Assembly: GCF_014982715.1 (NCBI RefSeq)
Contig: NZ_JADCJY010000001.1
Coordinates: 1,612,001 to 1,676,000 of the forward strand
Reading direction: 5' to 3'
DNA length: 64,000 bases
From: Gallalistipes aquisgranensis
Lineage (GTDB): Bacteria > Bacteroidota > Bacteroidia > Bacteroidales > Rikenellaceae
The notes under the pieces were generated by a model, which saw only the letters and a program-made list of their open reading frames with translations, had not been told where the DNA came from and did not search any database. The first letter of the stretch is position 1. The number at the start of each line of letters is the position of its first letter. This document shows positions 46,449 through 61,414 of the stretch, piece by piece. The translations under genes were made by a program, and so were the position numbers.

Positions 46449-46546
46449 CCGTTAACATGCGGAGCCGCCGGAACTCCCCCGTTCCGCCGCAGCCCCGCCC
46501 CGTGTCGATTTACCCTCCTCCGTGCATGATATTCCCGCTTTATTAT

Positions 46547-46554
46547 TACCTTTG
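46547..46554 (+). promoter_or_regulatory. -7 box for the GH2-like gene (TACCTTTG)
   Basis: TACCTTTG lies 19 nt before the ATG at 46573. A longer frame starts at 46522 but would begin upstream of this box, which supports the later start. Confidence 0.55.
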
Positions 46555-46572
46555 CCTCAAAATTTCCAACCG

Positions 46573-48516
46573 ATGATCCGCACCCTCCTTTTCGCCGCCT
46601 GTACGGCAGCCGCCGGAGTCTCCGCCCTCAGCTTATCCGCCGCGCGGAGCTCCTCGGACCTCTTCTCCGTCTCTTCCGCCGCACCGGCACGCAAGCCTGT
46701 AAAAAAACCGCAGGAACTCCCTGCCGTCAAACTGCTCCGTTACTCGGAAAACGCCCGTCCGGAAAGGCTCCCGTGGCCCCTCGATCCGGAAGCCGTCGCC
46801 GAAGGGAAAGACACCCCGCGGGGCGAAGTGCGCAGCTACGCTTCGGCCGCCGAGGCGCTGATACAGGGCGACACCTCCCTCTATCTGCAACCGCTGGAAG
46901 GAAAATGGAAGGGCGAGGAGTTCCGCGAGGGACGACTGGCGGGCATACGTTTCACCAGCCGTTTCAAGGTGCCCTTCGCCTGGGTGGACCGCCAGCTCTT
47001 CCTGCGGCTCGGCGGGGTCGGCGGCCCCTACGAGGTGAAGGTCAACGGAAAGCGGATCGCCCGCACGCAGGACGGATACACGCCGGCCGAATTCGACCTG
47101 ACCCGTCACGCGAAAGAGGGAAACAACACGCTGGAGATCGTCGCCTATGCCGGAGGCATAGGACGCATGCTGGAGAATTTCGGCACCCCGGGAACCCTGC
47201 ACGCACCGGACCGGAGCTACATCGTCGCCCAACCCCGCGTGCGCATCCGGGACATCGTGGCCGACACCCGGCTGGAAGGAGGCAGCGGACTGCTGTCGCT
47301 GGGGGTGATCCTCAAAAGCCATCTGCTCAACTTCAAGGAATACAACGTCTATTACGAGCTGACCGCCCCCGACGGCAGGACGGTTTCGTCCGGCCACCGG
47401 GAGGCCCGCTTCGACCTGCGCCGGGAGGACACGGTACGGTTTTTCGCCAACCTGCCGGACATCCTGCCCTGGAGCCACGAGGCACCGAACCTCTACACGC
47501 TGCAACTGAAAACCCAGTACGAGGGACGGTTCCAGGAGTACGTGTCGTTCGAAATCGGATTCCGGGAGGTCCGGATGCAGGAAGGCAGGCTGCTGGTCAA
47601 CGGCCGGGAATTCCCGCTGCGGGCCGTGGAATACCGGGCCCCGGCCGATTCGGCCGTCCTCTGCCGGGAGTTGGCGGAACTGAAACGCAAAGGAGCGAAC
47701 ACGATCAAGGTGCTGCACCATCCCCAGCCCGCGGCCCTCTACCGCGCCTGCGACCGGTTGGGTCTCTATGTATGCGACCAGGCCGGCATAGACACCCACC
47801 TGGCCGGAAATTCCCGCAAGAAGGGAGGAAATCCCTCGAACGATCCCCGCTGGCGGGACGCCTATGTGGAACGGGCACTGGCCATGTACCACACCTCGAA
47901 AAACCATCCGTCGGTCATTCTCTTCTCGCTGGCGGACGATTCGGCCAACGGATACAACCTGTATGAGAGTTACCTCGCCCTGAAGCGGGCCGAAAGCGAA
48001 CGCCCCGTCATCTACAACGGGGCCGGCAACGAATGGAACAGCGACGCCGTGACCGAACCCAGAAAAGGCGACGGACGGTTCGTCTTCGCACCGGCCTCAC
48101 CGGAGAATCTGATCGTCGGGGAACCCGTCTCGATCACCGCGAAAGACGCTTCCCGAGGCATATTTACCGTCACGAACCGCTACGATCTGACGTCGCTCGG
48201 AGCGGGCGACATCCGCTATGCGGTCCGTGTGGGACGGAAAACGGTCGCGGCAGGGGAGCTCCCTGTGCGGCTGGCCCCGGGCGAAAGCGGAGAGTACACG
48301 GTTCCGCTGCCCGAGCGGCTGAAATCCGGCGCACGGATGGAGATCACGCTGCGCGTGGAACGGGACGTTCCGGCCGCTTACCGCTATGTTCCCTCGGCAC
48401 AGGAACCGGAGATGCGGTCCGGCTCCCTGTTCCGCAAACCGGACGACAAAGAGCTCCCGGCCGGCACGCAGCGGGAACTGGTGACGGAAAAGACTTTTTC
48501 CGCCACCAGCCGGTAA
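46573..48516 (+). CDS. Secreted GH2-like protein with degenerate catalytic barrel
   Basis: The protein has 647 residues with a signal peptide (MIRTLLFAACTAAAGVSALS). Domain order follows LacZ-type beta-galactosidases: a jelly-roll sugar-binding domain (RLGGVGGPYEVKVNGKRIARTQDGYTPAEFDLT), an Ig-like domain, part of a TIM barrel, and a domain-4-like Ig part (FTVTNRYDLTSLGAGDIRYAV). The acid/base motif SLGNES of active enzymes is SLADDS here, with D456 in place of the catalytic Glu. The segment that should carry the nucleophile (CEYAHAMGN-like) is absent. It may bind a glycan without cutting it. It is a single gene between maeB and the HTCS gene. Confidence 0.75.
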   Translation: MIRTLLFAACTAAAGVSALSLSAARSSSDLFSVSSAAPARKPVKKPQELPAVKLLRYSENARPERLPWPLDPEAVAEGKDTPRGEVRSYASAAEALIQGDTSLYLQPLEGKWKGEEFREGRLAGIRFTSRFKVPFAWVDRQLFLRLGGVGGPYEVKVNGKRIARTQDGYTPAEFDLTRHAKEGNNTLEIVAYAGGIGRMLENFGTPGTLHAPDRSYIVAQPRVRIRDIVADTRLEGGSGLLSLGVILKSHLLNFKEYNVYYELTAPDGRTVSSGHREARFDLRREDTVRFFANLPDILPWSHEAPNLYTLQLKTQYEGRFQEYVSFEIGFREVRMQEGRLLVNGREFPLRAVEYRAPADSAVLCRELAELKRKGANTIKVLHHPQPAALYRACDRLGLYVCDQAGIDTHLAGNSRKKGGNPSNDPRWRDAYVERALAMYHTSKNHPSVILFSLADDSANGYNLYESYLALKRAESERPVIYNGAGNEWNSDAVTEPRKGDGRFVFAPASPENLIVGEPVSITAKDASRGIFTVTNRYDLTSLGAGDIRYAVRVGRKTVAAGELPVRLAPGESGEYTVPLPERLKSGARMEITLRVERDVPAAYRYVPSAQEPEMRSGSLFRKPDDKELPAGTQRELVTEKTFSATSR

Positions 48517-48606: not shown

Positions 48607-51600
48607 TCAGGTGGCATCCGCGTCTTCCTTTTCCCGCGGAGGAGCGGCCGGAGCCTCGGCATACTTTTTCATGTACTCCTTCGGGGTGAGCCCATAGGCC
48701 TCCTGGAAATAGCGGACGAAACGGTAATGGTTGTTGATCCCCACCTCGAACATCACTTCGGCCACGCGCATCTGCCCGGAAGCGAGCAACTGGGCCGCAC
48801 GCCGCAGCCGGATGTCCCGCACCATTTCGGAAACGGTCCTGCCGCCGGCGATCTTCTTCAACCGGCGGTAGAGCTGCATACGGCTCATGCCGAGCTCCTC
48901 GGAGAGCTGGTCGATGTCGAAGAGCGGATTTTGCAGGTTCCGTTCCACGATCCGGGAAATCCGGCGCAACAGCTGCTCGTCCGACGAAGGCACCTCGACC
49001 GGAGTCGGTTCCGTGATCTTCTCCGTACGGAGTTTCCGGGCATAGCTCTCCCGGGTCGATAGCAGGTTCCGGATACGGAATACGAGGTTCTCCGAATCGA
49101 ACGGCTTGACGATATACTCCTGCGCCCCGGCCGTGAGCGCCTCCCGCACCGACGCCTTGTCCTCCTTGACGCTGTGCACGATGACCGGGATGAAATTGGT
49201 CCGGGGATTTTCCTTCAGGCGGCGGATGAACTCGATACCGTCCATGCCGGGCATCATGATGTCGGTGATGACCGCCGCCGGAATCAGTTTCTGGGCCATA
49301 GCGAGCCCCTGCTCGCCGTCGGAGGCAATCTCCACCCGGAAATGACCCCGGAGACACTCGCGGATATAATCGCACATGTCCCGGTTATCCTCGACCACGA
49401 GTATCAGATATTTCCGTGGTTCCTTCCCCTCCTCCGGCGGCCGGGAGACCGGCTCCGCCGCGGCCGGACCTTCGTCCCCGGCCGTCACGCACTGCTCGGG
49501 CCGGAACGCCTCCCGGTCGACGGGGAATTCGACCGTGAACGTAGACCCCTCCCCGCTGCGGCTCCGCACCGCGATGGAACCCCCGTGGAGCTCCATGAGC
49601 GCCTTGCACAGGGCCAGCCCCACCCCGCTGCTGTAACCGCTCAGCGGAGTACCCCGATAAAAGAGGTCGAAGATTTTGTCCTGTTCCCGTTCGGGAATGC
49701 CCACCCCGGAATCCTGTACCGAGACATGGGCCCGCCTGCGGCCGTTCAGGGTCTCCACCCACAGCCTCACCTCGATACGGCCCTGCTCGGGCGTGAACTT
49801 ATAGGCGTTGGATAGGATGTTCTGCACCACCTTTTCGATCTTTCCCCGGTCGAACCACGCCTGTTCGATCCGGTCGGGACAGTCGAACCGGAGCACGATG
49901 CCGGTCTGCTCGCTCAGATAGCCGAACGAGTGCACCACCTCCCGGACGGTGCCGATCAGATCGCCCTGCGACACCGCCAGCGGCAGGCTCTGCACGGAGA
50001 GGCGCCGGATGTCGAGTATCTGGTTGATGAGCAACAGCAGTTTGTTGGTGTTCTTGTGAATGATCTGCAACCGGAAACGGGAATAACCGTCCACTCCCTT
50101 ATGGTTCATCAGGTCCTTGAGCGGAGCGAGGATCAGCGACAGCGGCGTCCGCAGTTCGTGAGTGACATTGGTGAAAAAGTTCAGCTTCAGTTCGTTCATC
50201 TCCAACGTCTTCTCCTGCTCGACCTTCTGCATGAAAAGTTCGCGTTTCCATCGCTGTTTCGCCCGCACGTAGTTGACGACGGCCATGACCGCACCGCCCA
50301 GCAGCAGGGCGTAGATCGAGAACGCCCACCAGGTGGCCCACGGAGCCGGCAATATCTGCACGTTCATCTGGCGTACGTCGTCGCTCCATGCCCCGTCGTT
50401 GTTGGAGGACTGGAGCCGGAAAGTATAGGTACCCGCCGGGAGATTGGCGTACGAGGCGTAACGGTGCCCCGAGGAGACGGTGATCCACTCCCGGTCGTAC
50501 CCCTCCAGCCGGTACCGGAACATGTTCTTTTTCGGCGTGACGTAGTGGTCGGACGTGAACTCCAGGGTGAAGTTGTTGAAACGGTGCCCCAGCGAAAAGC
50601 CCTCCACCGAATTGATGCTCCGGGGCAGGATCGTCCGTCCGCCGTACTCCTCCCCCACCCGCACGGAACGGTTGAAAACCTTCAGGTCGGTGAACACGGG
50701 CCGGCCGGAGTAGAGATTCTCCCGGAAACGGGCCGGATTGAAATAGTTCACCCCGTTGATCCCCCCGACGAAGACCCAGCCGTTATCCGACACGGCCGCC
50801 CCTTCCGTCCAGGTATTGCTCTGCAGACCGTCGTCCCAGATGTAGCGCCTCACGTGGCCGGAAGCCGGCTGGTAACGGTACAGCCCCTGGCTGCTGTTGA
50901 ACCACAGGTCGCCCTCCCGGTCCTCGGTGATGGCCAGTATCTTCGCATCCCGGAGCCAGGGCAGGGTGACACGCTCCAGCGAGACGATCCGGCCGTCGGG
51001 AGCGGTCTCCATCCGGTTGAGCCCGGCATCGGTGCCGATCCAGATCACGCCACGGCTGTCCTTCAGCAGGCTCCACACCTGGTCGTGGCTCAGGCCGAAA
51101 GGCGTGTCCCCGTGGCGGATCGCCTCCACCTCGAGACTCTCCCCACGCCGGCCGTACCGTATCCGGGAAAGCCCCCTGTCCGAAGAACCCACCCACACCG
51201 TACGGGCGGCCGTATCCGACAGCAGGCAGTAGGGCGAATCGGAGGCGAGCCCGTAGTCCTGCGTGTAGACGACGCTCTGTCCGCTATCGCTGAAATAACG
51301 GATCAGTCCGTTCACCGTGGCCACCCAGATGTCACCGTAACGGTCCTCGCACAGGTCGATATAATACCGGTAATGCTGCCAGTCTTCGGGCGACACCCCG
51401 GCCAGCCTCAGCTTCCGGGAGGATACACCGCCCGAAGCCGTGCGCCGCACCCGGTAAACACCCTCGCGCGCGGCAAACAGCAGCGACCCGTCGCGGGTCT
51501 CGATGATGCGGGCCACAGGCGAGGAGGTCACCTCCGACGAAACGTTCCGAAGCGTGCGCGTCCCGAAATCGTAACGGTACAACCCCTCCTTATAAGTACT

Positions 51601-52731
51601 GATCCAGAGGTCGTCCCGGCTGTCGATAAAAAGCGCATTGATATGACGTCCCCGGTAGCCCAGTTCGGAGAGCTGACGGTCGACCAGAGGTTTGAACGTG
51701 AACAGGTTCGGCTGGGAGAGATCGGCATAGTTCACCCCCCGCCGGGTCCCGACCCACAGCACGTTCGACCGGTCGATGTAAAGCGTACAGACATCGTTAT
51801 CCGTCAGCCGGCCGAAAAAATCGGACGTATCGTAGTGTACCGTCTCCAGCACCCGGAACTCCGGGTCGAACGACAGGCGGAACAGCCCCTTTCCCTTGAC
51901 GCCGAGCCAGAGGTTCCCCTCCCGGTCCCGCAGCGCACAATCGACGGAGCCGCCGTCCAGACCGGGAAAGACGATTTCGGAGAAACGCTCCCCGTCCGCG
52001 CAGACAGCCAGTCCGTCGGCGAACCCGACCCACATCGTCCCGGCCGAATCGCAGTAGAGGCTGGCCACCGCCCGCCCCCGGAAACGCTCGACCATCGTCA
52101 CCGTCCGCCTGCACCCCTCCGTCCGGCAGATGAACAGTCCTCGCGACGAGCCGATCCACATGCCGCCCTGCGGATCGCATGCGATCGAGGAGATCATGGC
52201 TCCGCCCAGTCCGCCCACCTCCCGGAAACGCATCTCGCCCTCCTCATAACGGCCGCACACCACTTCCGCATCGGTACCGATCCAGAGATCGCCCGCCTTG
52301 TCCCGGCAGAGCGACCGCACCCAGCGCGAGCGGAGCGCCCCGAGCGAAGGAGTGTGGTCGATATAACGGTTCCGGCCGGGATCGTAACGCATCAATCCCC
52401 CGTCCAGCCCCATCCACACCGTACCGTCGTCACAGGGCAGCATACAGACGATACGGTTGTTGACCGGCCCCTGCGGAACATCCAGCGAATGGCGGTCGGA
52501 GACGATCCGGTAGCCGTCGAAACGGTTGATCCCGTCGTAGGTGGCGATCAGGATCAGTCCGTCCTTGTCCTGCACGATGGAGGTCACGGAGTTCTGCGAC
52601 AGGCCGTCGTTGACACTCAGGTAACGGAACTTGAGCCGAGTATCCACCTCAGGAAAAATATCGCCGCCCCGGGACGGGACCGCGCACAGCGAAAGGAGAA
52701 GGACAAACAGACAGGTCGGTAGTTTTTTCAT
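48607..52731 (-). CDS. Hybrid two-component system regulator (HTCS)
   Basis: The protein has 1374 residues, all in one chain. It has a signal peptide (MKKLPTCLFVLLLSLCAV) and about 14 Reg_prop repeats forming two periplasmic propellers (about 30-690). A Y_Y_Y domain follows (about 700-780), then a membrane helix near 797-820. The histidine kinase has H858 in THELRTPLS. The receiver has D1157 in ITDIMMPGMDG, and an AraC-type DNA-binding domain lies at about 1275-1365 (MSRMQLYRRLKKIAGG). HTCS proteins sense oligosaccharides and switch on the adjacent utilisation locus. The divergent pectin genes from 53077 are its likely targets. The frame extends upstream to 52878 without a signal peptide. Confidence 0.95.
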   Translation of the reverse strand: MKKLPTCLFVLLLSLCAVPSRGGDIFPEVDTRLKFRYLSVNDGLSQNSVTSIVQDKDGLILIATYDGINRFDGYRIVSDRHSLDVPQGPVNNRIVCMLPCDDGTVWMGLDGGLMRYDPGRNRYIDHTPSLGALRSRWVRSLCRDKAGDLWIGTDAEVVCGRYEEGEMRFREVGGLGGAMISSIACDPQGGMWIGSSRGLFICRTEGCRRTVTMVERFRGRAVASLYCDSAGTMWVGFADGLAVCADGERFSEIVFPGLDGGSVDCALRDREGNLWLGVKGKGLFRLSFDPEFRVLETVHYDTSDFFGRLTDNDVCTLYIDRSNVLWVGTRRGVNYADLSQPNLFTFKPLVDRQLSELGYRGRHINALFIDSRDDLWISTYKEGLYRYDFGTRTLRNVSSEVTSSPVARIIETRDGSLLFAAREGVYRVRRTASGGVSSRKLRLAGVSPEDWQHYRYYIDLCEDRYGDIWVATVNGLIRYFSDSGQSVVYTQDYGLASDSPYCLLSDTAARTVWVGSSDRGLSRIRYGRRGESLEVEAIRHGDTPFGLSHDQVWSLLKDSRGVIWIGTDAGLNRMETAPDGRIVSLERVTLPWLRDAKILAITEDREGDLWFNSSQGLYRYQPASGHVRRYIWDDGLQSNTWTEGAAVSDNGWVFVGGINGVNYFNPARFRENLYSGRPVFTDLKVFNRSVRVGEEYGGRTILPRSINSVEGFSLGHRFNNFTLEFTSDHYVTPKKNMFRYRLEGYDREWITVSSGHRYASYANLPAGTYTFRLQSSNNDGAWSDDVRQMNVQILPAPWATWWAFSIYALLLGGAVMAVVNYVRAKQRWKRELFMQKVEQEKTLEMNELKLNFFTNVTHELRTPLSLILAPLKDLMNHKGVDGYSRFRLQIIHKNTNKLLLLINQILDIRRLSVQSLPLAVSQGDLIGTVREVVHSFGYLSEQTGIVLRFDCPDRIEQAWFDRGKIEKVVQNILSNAYKFTPEQGRIEVRLWVETLNGRRRAHVSVQDSGVGIPEREQDKIFDLFYRGTPLSGYSSGVGLALCKALMELHGGSIAVRSRSGEGSTFTVEFPVDREAFRPEQCVTAGDEGPAAAEPVSRPPEEGKEPRKYLILVVEDNRDMCDYIRECLRGHFRVEIASDGEQGLAMAQKLIPAAVITDIMMPGMDGIEFIRRLKENPRTNFIPVIVHSVKEDKASVREALTAGAQEYIVKPFDSENLVFRIRNLLSTRESYARKLRTEKITEPTPVEVPSSDEQLLRRISRIVERNLQNPLFDIDQLSEELGMSRMQLYRRLKKIAGGRTVSEMVRDIRLRRAAQLLASGQMRVAEVMFEVGINNHYRFVRYFQEAYGLTPKEYMKKYAEAPAAPPREKEDADAT

Positions 52732-52775
52732 GGCGGGCAGCGGGAACCGGGAAATAACCGGCTCCGCACGATAAA

Positions 52776-52783
52776 CAAATATA
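52776..52783 (-). promoter_or_regulatory. -7 box for the HTCS gene (TATATTTG)
   Basis: TATATTTG on the minus strand (52783 to 52776) lies 45 nt before the HTCS ATG at 52731. No TTG is seen at the expected spacing. Confidence 0.5.
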
Positions 52784-53076
52784 CGCAAAATTTCAGAATC
52801 CGCCACCCTCCGCCGCAATGCTTTCCGTCCGGCCGGACCGCGGCGCCTGTGGGATTTCCGGCCCGGAACAGACCCCAAACGGCCTCCGCCCGTCTCACAC
52901 GGAGGCGGAGGAATATTCCCGCCGGAAGCTCCCGATTCCGCGTACGGACCGCCTGCGGGCCACTTTAACAGATTTCAAACCTTTTTTGATAGAAAACAAA
53001 CCTCCGTTAGCGGGACAACTCCTAATATTGTAACGTGAAAAATCATATTATTCAATAAAACCAAAAAACTCAACCT
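52784..53076. other. Regulatory intergenic region between HTCS and the pectin genes
   Basis: The whole gap 52732-53076 is about 345 nt. Its HTCS side is GC-rich and holds a perfect 12-bp palindrome GTCCGGCCGGAC (52827-52838) and an inverted repeat CCTCCGCC/GGCGGAGG (52883-52890 with 52904-52911). The last 100 nt before 53077 are AT-rich, with a possible -7 box TAATATTG (53023-53030, one mismatch). No gene is seen. HTCS binding sites are expected here, but none can be named from sequence alone. Confidence 0.5.
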
Positions 53077-55116
53077 ATGAAGACAATTGCTACAAAATTG
53101 TTGTTGGTCGGAACCCTGTTCTCCCTGGCCGCCCTGCTGCCCGGCTGCAAGGACGATGAGACGGATGCTCCGTACAAGCTGTTCGTCCCGTCGAAAGCGA
53201 CGGCCACGGCCGAATACAATACGATCACCGTACACTGGACCCAGACCAAAGACGCCGTAGGCTATGAGGTGGCGATGGCGACCGATAACACCTTTTCGGA
53301 GATTCTCGAAACCCGCAACCAGGAGTACATCCCCGACACGGACGACAGCCACAAGACGGAATACGACGTCGTATTCGAAGACCTGGAGCCCTTCACGACC
53401 TACTATTTCCGTCTGAAAACGCTCTCCGCCGATCCCTCCCGCAACTCCAACTACTCCTACCGCGAGGCCACGACCGGCGAAGAGGCCCCGTTCTTCGATC
53501 CCATCGAGGAGGGCGACCTGGGCTACAACTTCGTAAAACTGAGCTGGAGCGAAGCCGTCAACGCGGATAAAATCATCTTCACCGACAAAGCGTCCGCAGT
53601 CGAGGAACTGACCCTGAACCTTTCTCCGGAAGCTCTCGAACGGCAAAGCATCTCACTCCGCGGCCGTTTCGTGCCCGGGGTAACCTACCGTGCCAAAATG
53701 TACCTGGGAGAAGAATACATCGGTTATATCGACATTCCGTTCCCTTCGGCAGAGAACTACATCACCGAAACGAGCGTCGGCTTCGATTTCGCCACGCTGA
53801 CGTGGAACGAAAAACTCTTCGTGAACAAGGTCGTGCTGACCTCCGCAGGCGGAACGGACGGCCCGTTCACCAAGGAGCTGACCACAGAGGAGATCAACGC
53901 CCACCAGGCAACGATCACCGGGCTCACCAGCGGCGCCACCTACAAGGCCACGCTCTACTGGGATGCCCAGGAACTCACCCAGTCGGCCGACATTACCACC
54001 AATGTTCTCGACGGTGAGATCGTCAGCGACCCCGCGACACTGAAGGAAAAGATTGAAAACGCTGCGGACGGAGCCAAACTCTACCTGCCGGCCGACCTCG
54101 TATTCGACTATTCGGAAGAGGATCTTCCCCTTACTAAAAATATCACACTGGTAGGACTTCCCAGCAGCACCACGGGCAAATCGACGCCGCTGATCTACGT
54201 CAAAGCATTCACGATCGGCGGAGCCGCTGCAACGGGCGACCTGCAACTGAATTCGATCCGTTTCGAGAATCTGGAAATTTCCGGTCTGATGCCGGAGCAG
54301 GACATCGCTACGACCGCACCCAACAACCGGTGCTTCTATGTAGATATCGCCGGCCGCAGCGTAACTCTCAATTCGTTCGAACTCGTCGGCTGTACGATCC
54401 ACGGATACTCTCGCTACATGTTCGGCCTCGAACCGACCGATGCAGACGCCTTCTTCCGGGTCTACAATATCACGATAGACGATTGTATCATCTACGATCT
54501 CGGACGCAACCCCGGCGGTTTCCAGTCCATCTTCCATTTCAATGCGAACAAAGGAAATGCCAACTATGCGCTGGACGGCACGCTGACGATGAAAAACAGT
54601 ACGATCTACAACATCTGGTACGGCATCATCGAACTCCAGAAGAACAGTTGTATCAAGCCTGAACCGTCCAATCTCAAAGTAGTTATCGAAAACTGCACGA
54701 TGGATAAGTTCGGCGTACCGATGGAAGGCGTATATCTTCCTGTAAAAACGAACGGATCTACCCGTAACGGACTTGGGTTCAACAACTATACCAATGTCCC
54801 CGTCACTATTCAGAACACGCTGTTCGGCCAGTTCATCTACATTGAAAGCGGTACGCTGGAAACAGGTTCGAAAGGTCCGAAAGATTTCCACCGGAACTGT
54901 ATCAACGCGATGCCGGATTTCGTAAATTCGAATTATGTCGGAGAAGGAACAAGACCCGATGGTTACTCGAATACCCGTCAACTGCGCGGTGCAGATAAAT
55001 TCGCCTTACAGGGTATAAGCTACGATCTCATGTTCCCGAACCGGGCAACAGATGACTATACGCCCGCCGACGATTACAAGGCAAAAGGTCTGGGCGACCC
55101 CAGATGGTTGAAATAA
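53077..55116 (+). CDS. FN3/DUF4957/DUF5123 lipoprotein of a pectin-type locus
   Basis: The protein has 679 residues. The lipobox is LLPGC with C24, followed by KDDE, a surface-export-type signal seen in Bacteroidota. Two or three FN3-like domains follow (about 35-310, for example YNTITVHWTQTKDAVGYEVAMA and ATLTWNEKLFVNKVVLTS). Then comes a DUF4957-like part starting near TLKEKIENAADGAKLYLPADLVF, and a DUF5123-like beta-helix end (ENCTMDKFGV ... NTLFGQFIYIESG). The domain set is known from Bacteroidota pectin loci. It may bind or cut pectin on the cell surface; no catalytic residues can be assigned. It has its own terminator (55137-55163). Confidence 0.8.
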   Translation: MKTIATKLLLVGTLFSLAALLPGCKDDETDAPYKLFVPSKATATAEYNTITVHWTQTKDAVGYEVAMATDNTFSEILETRNQEYIPDTDDSHKTEYDVVFEDLEPFTTYYFRLKTLSADPSRNSNYSYREATTGEEAPFFDPIEEGDLGYNFVKLSWSEAVNADKIIFTDKASAVEELTLNLSPEALERQSISLRGRFVPGVTYRAKMYLGEEYIGYIDIPFPSAENYITETSVGFDFATLTWNEKLFVNKVVLTSAGGTDGPFTKELTTEEINAHQATITGLTSGATYKATLYWDAQELTQSADITTNVLDGEIVSDPATLKEKIENAADGAKLYLPADLVFDYSEEDLPLTKNITLVGLPSSTTGKSTPLIYVKAFTIGGAAATGDLQLNSIRFENLEISGLMPEQDIATTAPNNRCFYVDIAGRSVTLNSFELVGCTIHGYSRYMFGLEPTDADAFFRVYNITIDDCIIYDLGRNPGGFQSIFHFNANKGNANYALDGTLTMKNSTIYNIWYGIIELQKNSCIKPEPSNLKVVIENCTMDKFGVPMEGVYLPVKTNGSTRNGLGFNNYTNVPVTIQNTLFGQFIYIESGTLETGSKGPKDFHRNCINAMPDFVNSNYVGEGTRPDGYSNTRQLRGADKFALQGISYDLMFPNRATDDYTPADDYKAKGLGDPRWLK

Positions 55117-55136
55117 ACTGTAGGAAACGATAATGG

Positions 55137-55163
55137 AACAGGGTGGGAAATTCCCACCCTGTT
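55137..55163 (+). terminator. Intrinsic terminator after the DUF5123 gene
   Basis: An 11-bp stem (55137-55147 with 55153-55163) has a 5-nt loop and runs into six T residues. It lies 20 nt after the stop and 57 nt before the PL9 gene, so part of the transcripts should end here. Confidence 0.85.
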
Positions 55164-55219
55164 TTTTCCCGGAGGCATCCGCTGCCGGAAACGACCGAAA
55201 AACGACGAAACCGATACAC

Positions 55220-56890
55220 ATGAACACATCACGCCACAATATCAGACGCACGGCGGCCCTGCTGGCCGCGGCGGCCTTCTGCCTTCTCGCCGCATGCGGC
55301 AAGGACGGCACGGACGGAGACGACGGAAACAACGGAAACGGAGGGGGCAACGGAGGCGGAGGCGTCACGCCGCCCCCCGTCGAAGAGCAAGTCATCTATG
55401 CCGCTCCCGGCGGTTTCAGCAACAACGAGGGGACGTTCGAAAGCCCGTACGACCTGAAAACGGCCATTTCGAAACTCCGGCCCGGCTGGACGCTCTACCT
55501 GCGCGGGGGAGAGTACAATATCAGGGCCCGGATCGACATGAACAAGAACATACAGGGCACGCCCACGGCTTCGTCCCCGATCCGGATATGGGCCTACGCC
55601 GACGAAAAACCCGTAATCAACTGCCGGCATGCGGTCGGAACGGCCGACAACCCCTACACGGAGGGAATCCGCAACAAGGACGTGGACTACGTGCACTGGA
55701 AGGGACTGGAACTGAAAAACGCCTGGAACCACGGGTTCCGCATCGAATACGCCTCGCACAACACCTACGAGAACTGCGTGTCGCACCACAATTCGGGAGC
55801 CGGTTTTTTCATCGGGTTCAGCAACGAGAAGATGGACCGGGACGACATCAATCCGGACGGTGAATCGTGTGCCTACAACGTCTATATCAACTGCGACGCC
55901 TACATGAATTTCGACTACCACACCTACAAGGGCGGCGGAGCCGAACACACTCCCGGCACGAATGCCGACGGTTTCGCGGCCAAGTGCAAGCCGGGCAAGG
56001 GCAACAAGTACTACAACTGCCGGGCATGGAGCAATTCGGACGACGGCTGGGACCTGTACGAAGCGACGGGCGGCGTGGAAATGATCAACTGCTGGTGCTG
56101 GAGGACCTCGATCTGGACGGACTACGAGGAGATGTACAAAGAGCGCATCCGATGGGAAAAGGAGGATGGAATATATAAGGGAAACTTTGCGGACGAACTG
56201 ACGGAAGATATTTTTAAAGGCAATGGGAACGGCTTCAAGATGGGCGGGGCCTGCTATTTCAGCAACGGGGCCAACTGGGAGAACGACAACCACCTTTCGC
56301 GGGGCATCCATGTGCTGCGCCACTGCATTTCGTTCAACAACCTGCGCTGGGGATTCGACCAGAACAACCACGTGGACGGCGCCTACGTGGAGAACTGCAT
56401 CGCGTTCAACAACGGGAACACAAAGAATCTCAGCAACTTCGGATTCCGTCAGATCAACATGCACGGCACGAAGTTCGTGTTCCGCAACTGCATTTCGTTC
56501 GGGGCCAAAAACCGGGACTCCTTCACCAACGCCACCTGCGAATTCGACCACAATTCGTGGAACGAAATCAAGGACAGAAGCAAGTCGTGGACGCCTTTCG
56601 ACGCCACGGCCTCGTACAACACCTATAAAGCTCAGTTCATCTCCCTTTCCGAAGAGGATGCCGGAGCCCCGCGCAAGGCCGACGGTTCGCTGCCCGACCG
56701 TTTCGGACGCCTGGCGGCAGGCAGCATATTCATCGACATGGGAGCCCCGACGGCCGACATAGACACCTACGCGGAGACCTCTGCCCTGGGCGGATACGAC
56801 CGGCCGGAGCGATACAATACGATCAGACTGTCGCCCATCCCCTACTCCGGCCCGGCTCCCGATCTGGGAATGTACGAATACGGCAACTGA
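55220..56890 (+). CDS. PL9-family pectate/rhamnogalacturonan lyase, lipoprotein
   Basis: The protein has 556 residues. The lipobox is LAAC with C26, then a Gly/Asn-rich linker (about 27-50). The parallel beta-helix carries the PL9 hallmarks. The calcium ligands are D250 (NADGFAAK), D274, D275 and D278 (SDDGWDL), with the same 24-1-3 spacing that I recall for Dickeya Pel9A. The probable catalytic base is K340 in NGFKMGG. About 26 extra residues lie between the calcium site and this lysine compared with Pel9A. It cuts polygalacturonate or rhamnogalacturonan backbones by beta-elimination. The frame is open upstream to 55133, but the signal peptide starts at 55220. Confidence 0.88.
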   Translation: MNTSRHNIRRTAALLAAAAFCLLAACGKDGTDGDDGNNGNGGGNGGGGVTPPPVEEQVIYAAPGGFSNNEGTFESPYDLKTAISKLRPGWTLYLRGGEYNIRARIDMNKNIQGTPTASSPIRIWAYADEKPVINCRHAVGTADNPYTEGIRNKDVDYVHWKGLELKNAWNHGFRIEYASHNTYENCVSHHNSGAGFFIGFSNEKMDRDDINPDGESCAYNVYINCDAYMNFDYHTYKGGGAEHTPGTNADGFAAKCKPGKGNKYYNCRAWSNSDDGWDLYEATGGVEMINCWCWRTSIWTDYEEMYKERIRWEKEDGIYKGNFADELTEDIFKGNGNGFKMGGACYFSNGANWENDNHLSRGIHVLRHCISFNNLRWGFDQNNHVDGAYVENCIAFNNGNTKNLSNFGFRQINMHGTKFVFRNCISFGAKNRDSFTNATCEFDHNSWNEIKDRSKSWTPFDATASYNTYKAQFISLSEEDAGAPRKADGSLPDRFGRLAAGSIFIDMGAPTADIDTYAETSALGGYDRPERYNTIRLSPIPYSGPAPDLGMYEYGN

Positions 56891-56962
56891 CCGGACAATC
56901 GGTTTCGGCAGAGCGAAACACGTGATTTCCGGGAAAAATCACTATTTTGTACCTTCGAAAAT

Positions 56963-56983
56963 CCGGCGGCGGTACGCCGCCGG
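56963..56983 (+). other. Stable hairpin in the leader of the first CE12 gene
   Basis: A 9-bp GC-only stem (56963-56971 with 56975-56983) has a GTA loop and ends 28 nt before the CE12 ATG. A possible -7 box TACCTTCG (56950-56957, one mismatch) lies just before it. No U-tract follows, so it is not a classic terminator; it could cap the 5' end of the transcript. Confidence 0.4.
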
Positions 56984-57011
56984 GAAGAAAGACACTGAAA
57001 ACGACTGCAAT

Positions 57012-57764
57012 ATGATGAAGAAAATCGTACTGGCCGCTGCCGTCCTGCTCGGTTGTTGCGGCATGGCCAAAGCCCCCGAAAAAGAGATCACCGTCTATCT
57101 GATCGGCGACTCCACCTGCGCCACCAAGAGCGAGAGCGCCCGGCCCGAAACCGGATGGGGCGAAAAACTCGGCCAGCATTTCAGGAAGGGCGTGAAGGTG
57201 GACAACCGCGCCCTGAACGGCCGGAGCACCAAAAGTTTCCGTGACCAGGGACATTGGGACAAAATCCTCGGGACTCTCCGTCCGGGCGATTTCGTCTTCA
57301 TTCAGTTCGGGCACAACGACCAGAAAGAGAGCGATCCCAAACGGTATTCCGACCCCGAAACGTTCGGCAGCAACCTGAAACGTTACATCGAAGAAACCCG
57401 GGCCAAAGGAGCCGTTCCGGTGCTGCTCACTTCGATCGCCCGCCGGAAATTCGACGCGAAAGGCAAACCCGCCCAAACGCTCAGACGCTATACCTCCGTC
57501 ACCCGCCAGGTAGCCGAACAGACCGCCACCCCGCTGATCGACATGGACGCGAAGACCCGCGCCCTGCTGGAGGAGATGGGGCCCGAGGCCTCGAAAAGCA
57601 TCTACCTCTGGGCCAAAAAGAGCGACTACCCCAACCTGAAAGCGGACAAGAAAGACGACACACACCTCAATCCCGACGGAGCCGAACGGTATGCGTCGAT
57701 GGTCGTGGACGGCATCCGCGAACAACAGATCGAACCGCTGATCGAAAACCTGAAGAAAAAATAA
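57012..57764 (+). CDS. Rhamnogalacturonan acetylesterase, CE12 family (copy 1)
   Basis: The protein has 250 residues and is a secreted SGNH hydrolase. Block I is IGDST with S34, block II has NGRSTKS, block III is FGHND with N102, and block V is DDTHLN with D215 and H218. These match CE12 (RgaE/YesT-like) enzymes, which remove acetyl groups from rhamnogalacturonan I. The signal region MMKKIVLAAAVLLGCC could act as a lipobox (LLGC), or be cut after AKA. It is the first of a tandem pair; the second copy starts 11 nt after this stop. Confidence 0.88.
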   Translation: MMKKIVLAAAVLLGCCGMAKAPEKEITVYLIGDSTCATKSESARPETGWGEKLGQHFRKGVKVDNRALNGRSTKSFRDQGHWDKILGTLRPGDFVFIQFGHNDQKESDPKRYSDPETFGSNLKRYIEETRAKGAVPVLLTSIARRKFDAKGKPAQTLRRYTSVTRQVAEQTATPLIDMDAKTRALLEEMGPEASKSIYLWAKKSDYPNLKADKKDDTHLNPDGAERYASMVVDGIREQQIEPLIENLKKK

Positions 57765-57775
57765 TCCACTGCCCC

Positions 57776-58531
57776 ATGTTCAAGAAAATCGTACTGGCCG
57801 CCGCCGTCCTGCTCGGTTGCTGCGGCATGGCCAAAGCCCCCGAAAAAGAGATCACCGTCTATCTGATCGGCGATTCCACCTGTGCCGTCAAAAAAGAGAG
57901 CGTCCGGCCCGAAACCGGGTGGGGCGAGAAACTCGGCCAGCACTTCAAGAAGGGCGTCGTCGTAGACAACCGCACCCTGAACGGCCGGAGTTCAAAAAGT
58001 TTCCGCAACGAAGGACGCTGGAAAGAGGTCCTCGAAGTACTTCGTCCGGGCGATTTCGTCTTCATCCAGTTCGGGCACAACGACCAGTCCAGACACAAAC
58101 CCGAACGGTTCTCCGATCCGGAAACTTTCGGAAAAAATCTGGCGCTCTATATCGAAGAGACCCGGGCCAAAGGAGCCGTTCCTGTGCTGCTCACCTCGAT
58201 CGCCCGCCGGAAATTCGACGCGCAGGGCAAGCCGGTGGATTCGCACAAAAATTACATGCAGGTCACCCGCCGGGTAGCCGAACAGACCGGCACCCCGCTG
58301 ATCGACATGGACGTGAAGACCCGCGCCCTGCTGGAGGAGATGGGACCCGAGGCCTCGAAAAGCATCTATCTCTGGGCCAAAAAGAGCGATTATCCCAATC
58401 TGAAAGAGGATAAACGGGACGATACCCATCTGAATGCGGCCGGAGCCGAAAAATATGCACAGATCGTCGCAGACGGCATCCGCGAACTGAAGCTCGAACC
58501 GCTGGCCGGTAAACTGAGAAAGATAAAATAA
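57776..58531 (+). CDS. Rhamnogalacturonan acetylesterase, CE12 family (copy 2)
   Basis: The protein has 251 residues and is a close copy of the gene before it. The same SGNH residues are present (S34 in IGDST, FGHND, DDTHLN). The signal peptide and the next 20 residues are almost identical to copy 1, while blocks around residues 72-90, 103-125 and 150-166 differ. Both copies look active, so they may prefer different acetylation positions or acceptor lengths; that is inference. It is translated from the same transcript as copy 1. Confidence 0.88.
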   Translation: MFKKIVLAAAVLLGCCGMAKAPEKEITVYLIGDSTCAVKKESVRPETGWGEKLGQHFKKGVVVDNRTLNGRSSKSFRNEGRWKEVLEVLRPGDFVFIQFGHNDQSRHKPERFSDPETFGKNLALYIEETRAKGAVPVLLTSIARRKFDAQGKPVDSHKNYMQVTRRVAEQTGTPLIDMDVKTRALLEEMGPEASKSIYLWAKKSDYPNLKEDKRDDTHLNAAGAEKYAQIVADGIRELKLEPLAGKLRKIK

Positions 58532-58664: not shown

Positions 58665-60632
58665 ATGAAAAAACTGATCTTCCTGATGTTGGGCGCGTGG
58701 CTGGGCGCCGCCCTCCCGGCAGGGGCCGCGGCAGTAAAACCGAAAGCCGTCCCTTCGTTCTGTTCCAGCAGCATCTATCTCTCCGCTCCACGCGGCAGCG
58801 AATGCAGACTCGCGTTCCGCGAAGAGGGCGAAAGCGAATGGAAAAAGGCCTACACTCCGATTTACGACACGATCGCCCGGGAATTCCGGGGCAGCATCGT
58901 GCGGCTGAAGGAGAACACCCCCTACGAAGTAAAAGCCGAACTCTTCACGGACGGCAGGAAAACGGGCGAAGGAATCACGGCCTTCCGTACCTGGAATTCG
59001 AATCCCCCGATCGGGAAAACCTACAAGATCAGCGAATTCATGCCCGACGCCGACGGGGCCGTCGTGGTCTCCGGAATCATGGGCCGGCAGAAGGCATGGA
59101 TAAAAATCACAGGCGACAAGGCGATCGAAGCCGGCCGGGAAGGGACCTATGCGCTCAAGGTAGAAAACTGCCGCTACGTGATCTTCGAAGGGCTGACCGT
59201 ACGCGGCGGAGGCATGCACGGCATCCACGTCAAGGAGACGGCCGAGGATGTGCGTTTCGTCAACTGCGACGTTTCGGACTGGGGCCGCATTCCGGTCGAC
59301 CAGACCAAAGACGGCTTCTACCTCGACTCCGAAGGCCGCAAGATCAACAACGACGCCGGATTCCGCATCGAACGCACCCTGAACACGGTCGTGGAGCGCT
59401 GCTGGGTCCACGACCCTGCCGGACTGACCAATCCGTGGAAAGGCATCCTCAAACTTGGGGCTTTCGCCGGACAGAAATTTCCGCGGGCCCATCCGCAGGG
59501 GCCCAACGCCGTGCATGTGAACCAGCTCCGGGGCGGATGCGTACTGCGCTACAACGACTTCTGCGGCAGCCAGACCCACCGCTACAACGACCCGGTGGAA
59601 GGGGCCCAGAACCGCGACATCGCGGGCGGATTCAACCGCGACGCCGACATCTACGGCAACGTGATGGCTTTCGGGCAGGACGACATCATCGAACTGGACG
59701 GCGGACAGTGCAATGTCCGGGTATTCGACAACCGCATGGAACAGACCTATTGCGGCGTCAGCACGGCACCCAACGTAAAAGGTCCCAGCTACATCTTCCA
59801 GAACGTGCTCTGGAATCCCGGCAACGAATACGGCGACACGGGCAATGCCGTGAAGAACGGCGGAGGCTTCACGTACAGTTTCGGCATTCAGTTCCTCTTT
59901 TCCAACACGATGCTCTTTCCCCGGGGCGGCATGTCGAGCGTGGGATACGGCAACGAACCCTCGCCGGTCCGGGGACGGTTCCATGCCGTGACCCGCAATA
60001 ACATTTTCTGCCAGCTCACGCCCGATAGCCCGGACGCCGTCCGCTATTCCATCAGCGACAAGGTGCTCACCCCCACCAACGACTTCGATTACGACATGAT
60101 CGCCTCGATGAAAAACCCGGGAGGACGCGGCAACATACTCGCCCGCGAGGGTTCGGAGCCCCACGGCGTGTTCGCCGCCCCCTCCTTCACCGATCTGGAG
60201 AAAGGTATCCTAACACTTGCCGCAGACGATCCGGGAATCGACAAGGGAACCGCCATTACCAATTTCGTGGAACAGTATACCGGCAAGGCCCCCGACCTGG
60301 GCGCCTTCGAACGGGGCGCTTCGTCGCTGATGCCCCGCCGTCCGATCGACGCGGAGGCCGACCGCTATATCGTCTACATGAAAGAGGGACAGCCCGAACA
60401 GGTGAATATCCGTTTCGGAAAGATCACCCCGACCACCTACGAAGTCTGCATGAGCGACGACATGGGCCCCTGGCTGATGGTAGACCATACTTCGGGCGAA
60501 CTCCGCGAGGGTCAGACGCTCACCCTGACACTGAGGCTCTCCGGCCGGGTGGACTACGACCGTAAAGGCATGATCTTCGTACGGATGGCCGACGGTTTTT
60601 CAGTTCCCATCAGCATAATGCCCGCCCGATAA
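58665..60632 (+). CDS. Secreted right-handed beta-helix protein, possible polysaccharide-degrading enzyme
   Basis: The protein has 655 residues. A signal peptide (MKKLIFLMLGAWLGAALPAGA) is followed by an Ig/FN3-like domain (about 30-110: YLSAPRGSECRLAFREEG). A parallel beta-helix follows (about 120-560), with the run from ALKVENCRYVIFEGLTVRGGG onward. The C-terminal Ig-like domain (570-655) resembles BACON-type domains. Candidate active residues are clustered at D326 and D328 (FNRDADIYGN) and D339, D340, E343 and D345 (GQDDIIELDGG). I cannot place it in a CAZy family. It lies between CE12 and DUF6250 genes, so a role on rhamnogalacturonan is likely but unproven. Confidence 0.7.
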   Translation: MKKLIFLMLGAWLGAALPAGAAAVKPKAVPSFCSSSIYLSAPRGSECRLAFREEGESEWKKAYTPIYDTIAREFRGSIVRLKENTPYEVKAELFTDGRKTGEGITAFRTWNSNPPIGKTYKISEFMPDADGAVVVSGIMGRQKAWIKITGDKAIEAGREGTYALKVENCRYVIFEGLTVRGGGMHGIHVKETAEDVRFVNCDVSDWGRIPVDQTKDGFYLDSEGRKINNDAGFRIERTLNTVVERCWVHDPAGLTNPWKGILKLGAFAGQKFPRAHPQGPNAVHVNQLRGGCVLRYNDFCGSQTHRYNDPVEGAQNRDIAGGFNRDADIYGNVMAFGQDDIIELDGGQCNVRVFDNRMEQTYCGVSTAPNVKGPSYIFQNVLWNPGNEYGDTGNAVKNGGGFTYSFGIQFLFSNTMLFPRGGMSSVGYGNEPSPVRGRFHAVTRNNIFCQLTPDSPDAVRYSISDKVLTPTNDFDYDMIASMKNPGGRGNILAREGSEPHGVFAAPSFTDLEKGILTLAADDPGIDKGTAITNFVEQYTGKAPDLGAFERGASSLMPRRPIDAEADRYIVYMKEGQPEQVNIRFGKITPTTYEVCMSDDMGPWLMVDHTSGELREGQTLTLTLRLSGRVDYDRKGMIFVRMADGFSVPISIMPAR

Positions 60633-60646
60633 GAAAGAGAATAACC

Positions 60647-61414
60647 GTGAACCGAAACCGTACGGAACACATACAGGCCCGGACCGGTATCCGACACGTT
60701 CTGCTCGCCGCCGCGCTCCTGAGCCGGATCGGCATATCCGAAGCAGCCGAACCGACACCCCGGCAGACGCTGCGGGAAGACTTTTCGCAGGGTCTCGCCC
60801 GTTGGGTGGCGGAGGACGACCCTTCGGCCCGGGCCCGGTTCTCGTTCCGGGGCGACACGGCGGAGATACGGACACCGAAAGGGCTCACGCTCTGGTTCGA
60901 CCGCAAATTGTCGGGCGACTACACCGTCAGCTACGACGTGCTGTTTCTGGTCGACACGGCCAGGGACGAGCGGCTCAGCGACCTGAACTGTTTCTGGAAC
61001 GCCTCCGATCCCCGGCATCCCGATTCGCTCTTCTTCGATTCGGCCTGGCGGCAGGGCATTTTCGCCCGCTACAATACGCTGAACCTCTATTACGTGGGAC
61101 ACGGCGGGAATGACAACACGACCACCCGGTTCCGCAAATACCACGGCCTCCGCTGCGACCGCACGGAGCCGAAGAAGAATGCCGACCGCATCAAACCGTT
61201 GCTCCAGGGCTATACCGAGCCGGAATACCTCCTCCGGGAAGGCCGCTGGGAGCATATCGAAATCCGGGTGCGCGGCAACCGGTCGGAATACCTCTGCAAC
61301 GGACGGCTGCTGTTCCGCCACGACGACAACGCCCCCTACCGGGAGGGTTATTTCGGCCTGCGGCTGCTACGCAACCGGATTCTGCTGACCAACTTCCGGA
61401 TCGACGAATACTGA
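60647..61414 (+). CDS. DUF6250-like secreted protein (jelly-roll fold expected)
   Basis: The protein has 255 residues. It starts with GTG after a purine-rich stretch (AAGAAAGAGA). The signal peptide is basic then hydrophobic (RHVLLAAALLSRIGISEA). The body matches the DUF6250 pattern: an early EDFSQGLARW, then DERLSDLNCFWNASDP, LNLYYVGHGGNDNTTTRFRKY, and a C-terminal REGYFGLRLL. A concanavalin-like jelly roll is expected. Conserved residues in the middle (Asn-Asn-Thr-Thr-Thr-Arg-Phe) could form a binding or active site. It is the last gene of the pectin-type locus, 14 nt after the beta-helix gene. The function is unknown. Confidence 0.72.
   Translation: MNRNRTEHIQARTGIRHVLLAAALLSRIGISEAAEPTPRQTLREDFSQGLARWVAEDDPSARARFSFRGDTAEIRTPKGLTLWFDRKLSGDYTVSYDVLFLVDTARDERLSDLNCFWNASDPRHPDSLFFDSAWRQGIFARYNTLNLYYVGHGGNDNTTTRFRKYHGLRCDRTEPKKNADRIKPLLQGYTEPEYLLREGRWEHIEIRVRGNRSEYLCNGRLLFRHDDNAPYREGYFGLRLLRNRILLTNFRIDEY

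Follow-up and report, generated by a model that had tools for sequence, protein, structure and literature searches.

We analyzed two neighboring genes of Gallalistipes aquisgranensis, within 64,000 nucleotides (nt) of contig NZ_JADCJY010000001.1 (NCBI RefSeq assembly GCF_014982715.1, positions 1,612,001 to 1,676,000 of the forward strand). This whole stretch is called the window here, and coordinates without a locus prefix refer to it. The first gene (58665..60632, + strand; open reading frame (ORF) of 655 amino acids, ATG start) encodes a beta-helix protein, hereafter BH, and the second (60647..61414, + strand; 255 amino acids, GTG start) a DUF6250 protein. The main gain of the analysis is that DUF6250 is tied both to YesU of Bacillus subtilis and to polysaccharide lyases, with which it is repeatedly fused, and a role in pectin or uronate metabolism is highly probable for both proteins. 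A first-pass annotation had placed the two genes at the end of a pectin locus with 14 nt between them, which we confirmed for both ORFs and for the spacing, and had proposed them as a pectin-active pair. The latter proposal stands in part: both the window locus and those of the closest BH relatives are of the pectin type, DUF6250 tracks lyases and a natural fusion exists, but the pair is not an obligate one.

The second protein matched the DUF6250 profile (PF19763) over its full length, 1-165, with 200.2 bits (cut-off 26.9). We assembled 26 loci with strong DUF6250 matches, namely the window, L001, L002, and eight and fifteen loci from two genome searches. Left out were weaker matches, some of them over the cut-off, among them those of G086, G855, G860, G657 and G713 and additional places in G733 and G766, as were three of the four Marinifilum records (L003, L004 and L005; L002 was kept). 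Throughout, neighboring genes were named by phmmer against reference proteins, with Pfam applied to selected neighbors; the names SusC/SusD, GH105, sulfatase and those of hybrid regulators outside the window come from sequence reading or reference matches.

DUF6250 is fused to a lyase in 8 of the 26 loci, which are not independent because genera repeat (L080/L081, L082/L084, L074/L075 and L076/L079/L085). Six of the fusions are with PcRGLX, DUF6250 coming first (L040 and L080-L084), and the other two, with PL11 (L073) and PL8 (L086), carry it last. A lyase gene is adjacent to DUF6250 in six more loci: PcRGLX in L037 and L078, PL8 in L042, PL4 in L043, PL6 in L002 and, divergently oriented, PL9 in L041. 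A PL9-like gene lies elsewhere in the locus in two more (the window and L001), and other sugar or polysaccharide genes are found near DUF6250 in five (L036, L038, L039, L079 and L087). The pectin links that we found are to rhamnogalacturonan I (RG-I)-type or homogalacturonan-type genes, together with some PL6 and PL8 loci; rhamnogalacturonan II is not specifically indicated. Two of the loci had features of their own. In L079 (1-5149) the DUF6250 gene lies beside genes for a LacI-type regulator, an L-fucose isomerase and DUF6786; YesU is reported to bind fucosylated glycans. In L001 (8000-8160), from a sister metagenome-assembled genome, the DUF6250 frame has no ATG, GTG or TTG upstream of 8157 though the similarity extends further, and a frame break near an A-run, real or from assembly, is likely.

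The connection to YesU was seen in profile comparisons and, independently, in a structural model. A DUF1961 profile built from Bacteroidota proteins matched 1oq1 ('Protein yesU') with an E-value of 3.4e-57. Compared with this family, the DUF6250 profile aligned over 228 columns with a probability score of 98.2, which was 96.7 when the signal peptides were trimmed and 96.4 without the most distant row. The DUF6250 profile also found 10 of 10 DUF1961 proteins at E-values up to 3e-4, with reversed sequences at E-values of 68 or more; the DUF1961 profile recovered, at E-values under 1e-3, 6 of 13 DUF6250 proteins, of which Marinifilum accounts for four. The window protein itself was unmatched by DUF1961 (PF09224 absent at E up to 1; E 370 with our own profile). 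A joint DUF6250/DUF1961 alignment of 16 rows shows five residues, W83, Y142, R163, G234 and R239, in every row, and Y142 and R163 are kept in the six DUF1961 rows of alignment A8. From this profile homology and from the same fold in a low-confidence model, we place DUF6250 in the DUF1961/YesU superfamily. A separate observation was made in L116 (9619-11487), where a GH88/105 domain is followed in the same protein by a C-terminal one that exceeds both the DUF1961 and the DUF6250 cut-offs; the superfamily is joined there to a relative of enzymes acting on unsaturated lyase products.

An AlphaFold2 (AF2) model of the DUF6250 protein from six sequences was weak (predicted local distance difference test (pLDDT) 57.8, predicted template-modeling score 0.61). 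Its best VIA match was 1oq1 (Z 17.4, 192 residues, root-mean-square deviation 2.8; Z 13.9 for the next entry), and Foldseek listed CBM66 first and 1oq1 third among many ConA-like folds. The predicted fold is thus galectin/ConA-like. The N-terminus is signal-like by eye. Besides the start Met, 27 residues, many of them polar, are invariant in a 13-row alignment that includes four close Marinifilum sequences. They include R109, S111, D112, L113, N114, F116, A119, D121 and P122 of the block R109-P122 (RxSDLNxFWxAxDP; 60971..61012, + strand), and Y142, Y149, N157, T160, R161, R163 and Y165 of the block Y142-Y165 (61070..61141, + strand). The conserved Asn/Thr/Arg block seen at first pass is therefore real, N157, T160, R161 and R163 being present in 13 of 13 aligned proteins. 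Counting along the 1oq1 alignment with an inferred three-residue offset, R163 would correspond to Arg133 of YesU, which is reported as a residue of the docked ligand pocket (PMC6120924). The same report describes binding of YesU to Lewis x and some glycosaminoglycans, and places yesU next to rhgT, a rhamnogalacturonan acetylesterase gene, in B. subtilis (PMC6120924). This organism is described as importing unsaturated RG-I oligosaccharides, which are cut in the cytosol by YesR (PMC7596534). Our literature search on the DUF6250 family itself returned nothing.

A link between BH and DUF6250 was found outside the window as well. One Bacteroidales genome (G657) encodes a single protein of 755 amino acids that joins a BH-like domain (192.5 bits with alignment A3) to a YesU/DUF6250-like C-terminal domain, the latter scoring 73.7 bits with DUF1961 and 31.9 bits with DUF6250, both over the Pfam cut-offs. 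In a second genome of this genus (G860), a BH-like ORF is overlapped by the ORF immediately before it, which is YesU-like, 141 amino acids long and probably partial. The pairing of BH with DUF6250 is recurrent, not obligatory.

For BH, the first-pass annotation had drawn attention to a dense acidic cluster of the kind found in catalytic clefts. The six residues, D326, D328, D339, D340, E343 and D345, are present at these positions, but their density is ordinary: 4750 of 5000 shuffles of BH hold at least one run of 20 residues with six D/E, and we rejected acidic density as evidence. The signal above chance is conservation instead. In an alignment of 14 BH-family rows (A10; the window included, the other rows being 19-51% identical to it), every row has D309, D328, D340 and E343, and likewise N297, N332, N350, R352, N356 and N380. 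Position 345 holds D in 13 rows and E in the remaining one, position 339 D in 12 rows and F in two, and position 326 D in 7. Eight D/E of residues 115-560 are kept in at least 12 of the 14 rows, and six of them fall among the nine D/E of residues 309-345 (hypergeometric 1e-4, for a segment picked after inspection). Conservation around residues 306-388 is biased upward, because several of the distant rows were first recruited by local matches there. D309, D328, D339, D340, E343 and D345 would form the candidate acidic cleft (codons of residues 309-345, 59589..59699, + strand; family conservation). Every row has I at position 342 and, with Ala and Cys counted, a hydrophobic residue at position 344 (14 of 14), so by strand alternation E343 and D345 are predicted to point outward. 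At the level of sequence, the acids first named are thus conserved, all but D326, and would not face the helix core.

The layout of BH comprises an fn3-like N-terminal stretch, based on weak profile matches to fn3 chains, a right-handed beta-helix domain and a weak BACON-like C-terminus; the N-terminus is signal-like by eye. Two Pfam matches were sub-threshold, Beta_helix (PF13229) at 144-250 with 20.3 bits (cut-off 25.9) and BACON_2 at 587-624 with 12.8 bits (cut-off 25). The profiles of PL9 (PF22842, Pel9A-like helix), GH28 (PF00295) and PL6 (PF14592, Chondroitinas_B) were absent from the Pfam matches of BH at E up to 1, and no NCBIfam family was matched by BH or by the DUF6250 protein at the same limit. 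PF14592 does match 1 of the 11 members of BH alignment A1 (E 1.9e-4). An AF2 run on BH with single-sequence input gave an unusable model (mean pLDDT 35).

With BH as a single query, matches were found in 10 of 395 genomes of the class, its own included, and were mostly short; among 250 genomes of the family its own was the one match. Viral-contig scans with the BH protein and with the DUF6250 alignment gave no relatives. A profile from alignment A9 matched 115 of 228 genomes. We used just the eight places above 290 bits, which lie in five genomes (two of the eight in the own genome); among the matches listed, the others were below 70 bits, many falling toward the C-terminus. DUF6250 is present once and BH twice in the own genome. 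The BH paralogue (51-53% identity) directly follows SusC/SusD-like genes, and 3' of it one protein carries FGE-sulfatase-like and rhamnogalacturonan lyase 11-like (RGL11) domains (L045, 11297-13714). Two further genomes have pairs of BH-family proteins (51% and 40%, and 48% and 41% identity), in loci L162 and L163 that contain GH2, GH28 and SGNH esterases, with a TonB receptor checked by Pfam in one of them. BH is thus tied to pectin without DUF6250 too, as the paralogue and the L162 and L163 loci carry pectin genes. The closest BH relatives lie in pectin loci and the distant ones mostly elsewhere; L046 and L117 have sulfatase-like neighbors by reading. We also noted that the paired paralogues stand ahead of SusC-like genes in two genera, with one gene between them in L162 (6052-12067) and adjacent in L163 (7924-12315), and that in L165 (5386-6152) a distant BH relative has next to it a PL9-like ORF (phmmer 1e-15) that is truncated where the contig ends.

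That both proteins are pectin-active is well supported by the window context. We propose, giving it an even chance as a whole, that the two genes serve a rhamnogalacturonan-type pectin locus in accessory steps, BH as an enzyme and the DUF6250 protein as a handler of uronates. BH would be exported and would most likely cut an acidic pectic chain in a surface cleft with D309 on one coil and D339, D340, E343 and D345 on the next. Catalysis by BH is plausible from its sequence, and on balance we expect BH to be catalytic. Metal-assisted beta-elimination as in PL9, with K397 or R352 as a putative base, is the chemistry that we favor, tentatively. For PL9, calcium held by Asp209, Asp233 and Asp237 and Lys273 as the base have been reported (PMC10992409), and the layout of the active site has been described (PMC6627557). 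K397 is K in 8 of 9 rows of A9. The DUF6250 protein would be a galectin-fold protein of YesU type that handles uronate-bearing oligosaccharides released by lyases, using a pocket around Y142 and R163; it may be an enzyme or a binding module. That it acts on or binds lyase products is fairly likely; that it acts on them as an enzyme is a less secure suggestion, even if we lean slightly to catalysis over pure binding. The two proteins might act in order.

Several observations weigh against this proposal. The sister species keeps DUF6250 with a GH97 in the position of BH, and no BH match was found in its genome. Conversely, four genomes with BH relatives (G779, G681, G746 and G343) gave no DUF6250 match. 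Near the distant BH relatives in L164, L166 and L167 BH itself was the sole reference match, with none to a lyase, glycoside hydrolase or esterase, and L161 and L118, on short contigs, had no recognised enzyme; because of those distant BH loci that hold no pectin genes, our confidence in a pectin or uronate role was lowered slightly. A polysaccharide-degrading gene was not seen near DUF6250 in 5 of the 26 loci (L074-L077 and L085), where Pfam was run on selected neighbors of L075, L076 and L085, two lie at contig ends and L075 has a TonB receptor. For contrast, 14 DUF1961 loci were put through the same ORF and reference search, and DUF1961 itself was the sole match in 12; the remaining two were the GH88/105 fusion of L116 and a gene beside sulfatase-like genes in L115. 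We rejected DUF6250 as a substitute for absent GH88/105, as GH88/105 is strongly matched 10 times in the own genome and DUF6250 is therefore not needed in its place. With regard to the chemistry of BH, HMM and hhalign comparisons with PL9 aligned the general coils, but not DDxxE of BH with DDGxD of PL9, and K397, present in 7 of 7 close rows of A10, is gapped in the other seven. The published lectin activity of YesU (PMC6120924) favors binding.

It is possible, although we would not call it probable, that DUF6250 has no catalytic role and serves as a carbohydrate-binding module or lectin, tethering lyases to their substrates or products, which would leave BH as the sole enzyme of the pair. The galectin/ConA-like fold, whose structural matches include CBM66 and lectins, the fusion at either end of unrelated lyases and the reported binding by YesU of Lewis x and some glycosaminoglycans (PMC6120924) are consistent with such a role. 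However, 18 of the 26 copies are unfused, the 27 invariant residues are in good part polar, and the Foldseek matches include a related fold that is catalytic, 3-keto-2-hydroxy-glucal hydratase (8v31). YesU, according to its authors, is without a signal peptide (PMC6120924), and is therefore in an odd place for a polysaccharide tether.

A second alternative, which we regard as rather unlikely, makes BH a hydrolase of the rhamnogalacturonan backbone or side chains, GH28-like and inverting or another beta-helix glycosidase, and not a lyase. Its DD motif on neighboring coils presumably resembles the GH28 motifs, and BH relatives share two loci with GH28. Nevertheless, the GH28 profile is unmatched as given above, the first Asp of DD is F in 2 of 14 rows, and E343, an invariant spaced acid, fits the Asp209, Asp233 and Asp237 set reported for PL9 (PMC10992409) better. 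Finally, BH and DUF6250 could be functionally unrelated, recent cargo acquired independently at the end of the pectin operon, as their different phyletic spread and the sister species without a BH match may indicate, but the fusion in G657, the reverse-order adjacency in G860 and the 14-nt spacing in the window make this improbable.

The upstream part of the locus agrees with the pectin assignment. A PL9-like lyase (55133..56890, + strand; PF22842 44.6 bits, cut-off 25.2) is closer by phmmer to the pectate lyase 1ru4 (E 1.4e-29) than to the rhamnogalacturonan lyase 5olq (E 3.4e-14). It is followed by two CE12-like SGNH esterases on the + strand. The first (57012..57764; PF13472 69.9 bits; 2o14 yxiM E 6.1e-19; rhamnogalacturonan acetylesterase 1deo E 1.2e-11) has its start placed by counting inside ORF 56922-57764; for the second (57254..58531; PF13472 66.1 bits at residues 205-399) the coordinates are those of the ORF as called, with the likely start well inside. 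These two are clearly similar and form a tandem (56922-58531); the sister species has one. Further upstream are an fn3 protein whose similarity to DUF4957 and DUF5123 is weak and below cut-off for each (53077..55116, + strand), relatives of which are present in both other BH pectin loci, L162 and L163, a hybrid two-component regulator (48607..52878, - strand; Reg_prop, Y_Y_Y, HisKA, HATPase_c, Response_reg and HTH_18) and a GH2-type glycoside hydrolase (46522..48516, + strand; PF02836 86.2 bits). An open frame of 930 amino acids antisense to the regulator (49930-52722), with no Pfam match at E up to 1, is probably a composition artefact. The promoter and terminator scan gave 1 and 7 sites, not above shuffled sequence.

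The structure of YesU has been solved and lectin activity has been published for it, which leaves its position next to a rhamnogalacturonan esterase to be explained. As DUF6250 is repeatedly fused to lyases and linked to YesU, the YesU structure now has a role that can be tested. Activity of either protein would fill a gap in the breakdown of pectin and similar uronic-acid polysaccharides by gut Bacteroidota. A larger claim, which we consider doubtful, would be that DUF6250/YesU is an unrecognised class of galectin-fold enzymes, and that BH founds a new family of beta-helix pectin lyases, in some species fused to DUF6250/YesU. That class would act on the unsaturated uronyl (or reducing) end shared by what PL4, PL6, PL8, PL9, PL11 and PcRGLX release.

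In comparison with known systems, BH shares the right-handed beta-helix with PL9 (Pel9A, 1RU4; rhamnogalacturonan lyase, 5OLQ), and by eye its DDxx(D/E) acidic set and the order and spacing of D309, D339, E343 and, in close relatives, K397 resemble the PL9 Asp/Lys set. We did not file BH as PL9, since PF22842 is unmatched and the motif columns are unaligned. Chondroitinase B of PL6 (1OFL) has a general beta-helix likeness to BH (E 4e-4 with a 7-row BH profile), but its N-terminal coils alone align, and with 14 rows in the profile it is no longer listed at E up to 1. The DUF6250 protein shares the ConA-like fold and a weak C-terminal similarity with PF06439, the 3-keto-disaccharide hydrolase family (25.1 bits, under the cut-off of 26.8). 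Its relation to YesU (B. subtilis, DUF1961, 1OQ1) is one of homologous fold and profile with Y142 and R163 kept, whereas the RxSDLN and GGNxNTTTRFR blocks are DUF6250's own.

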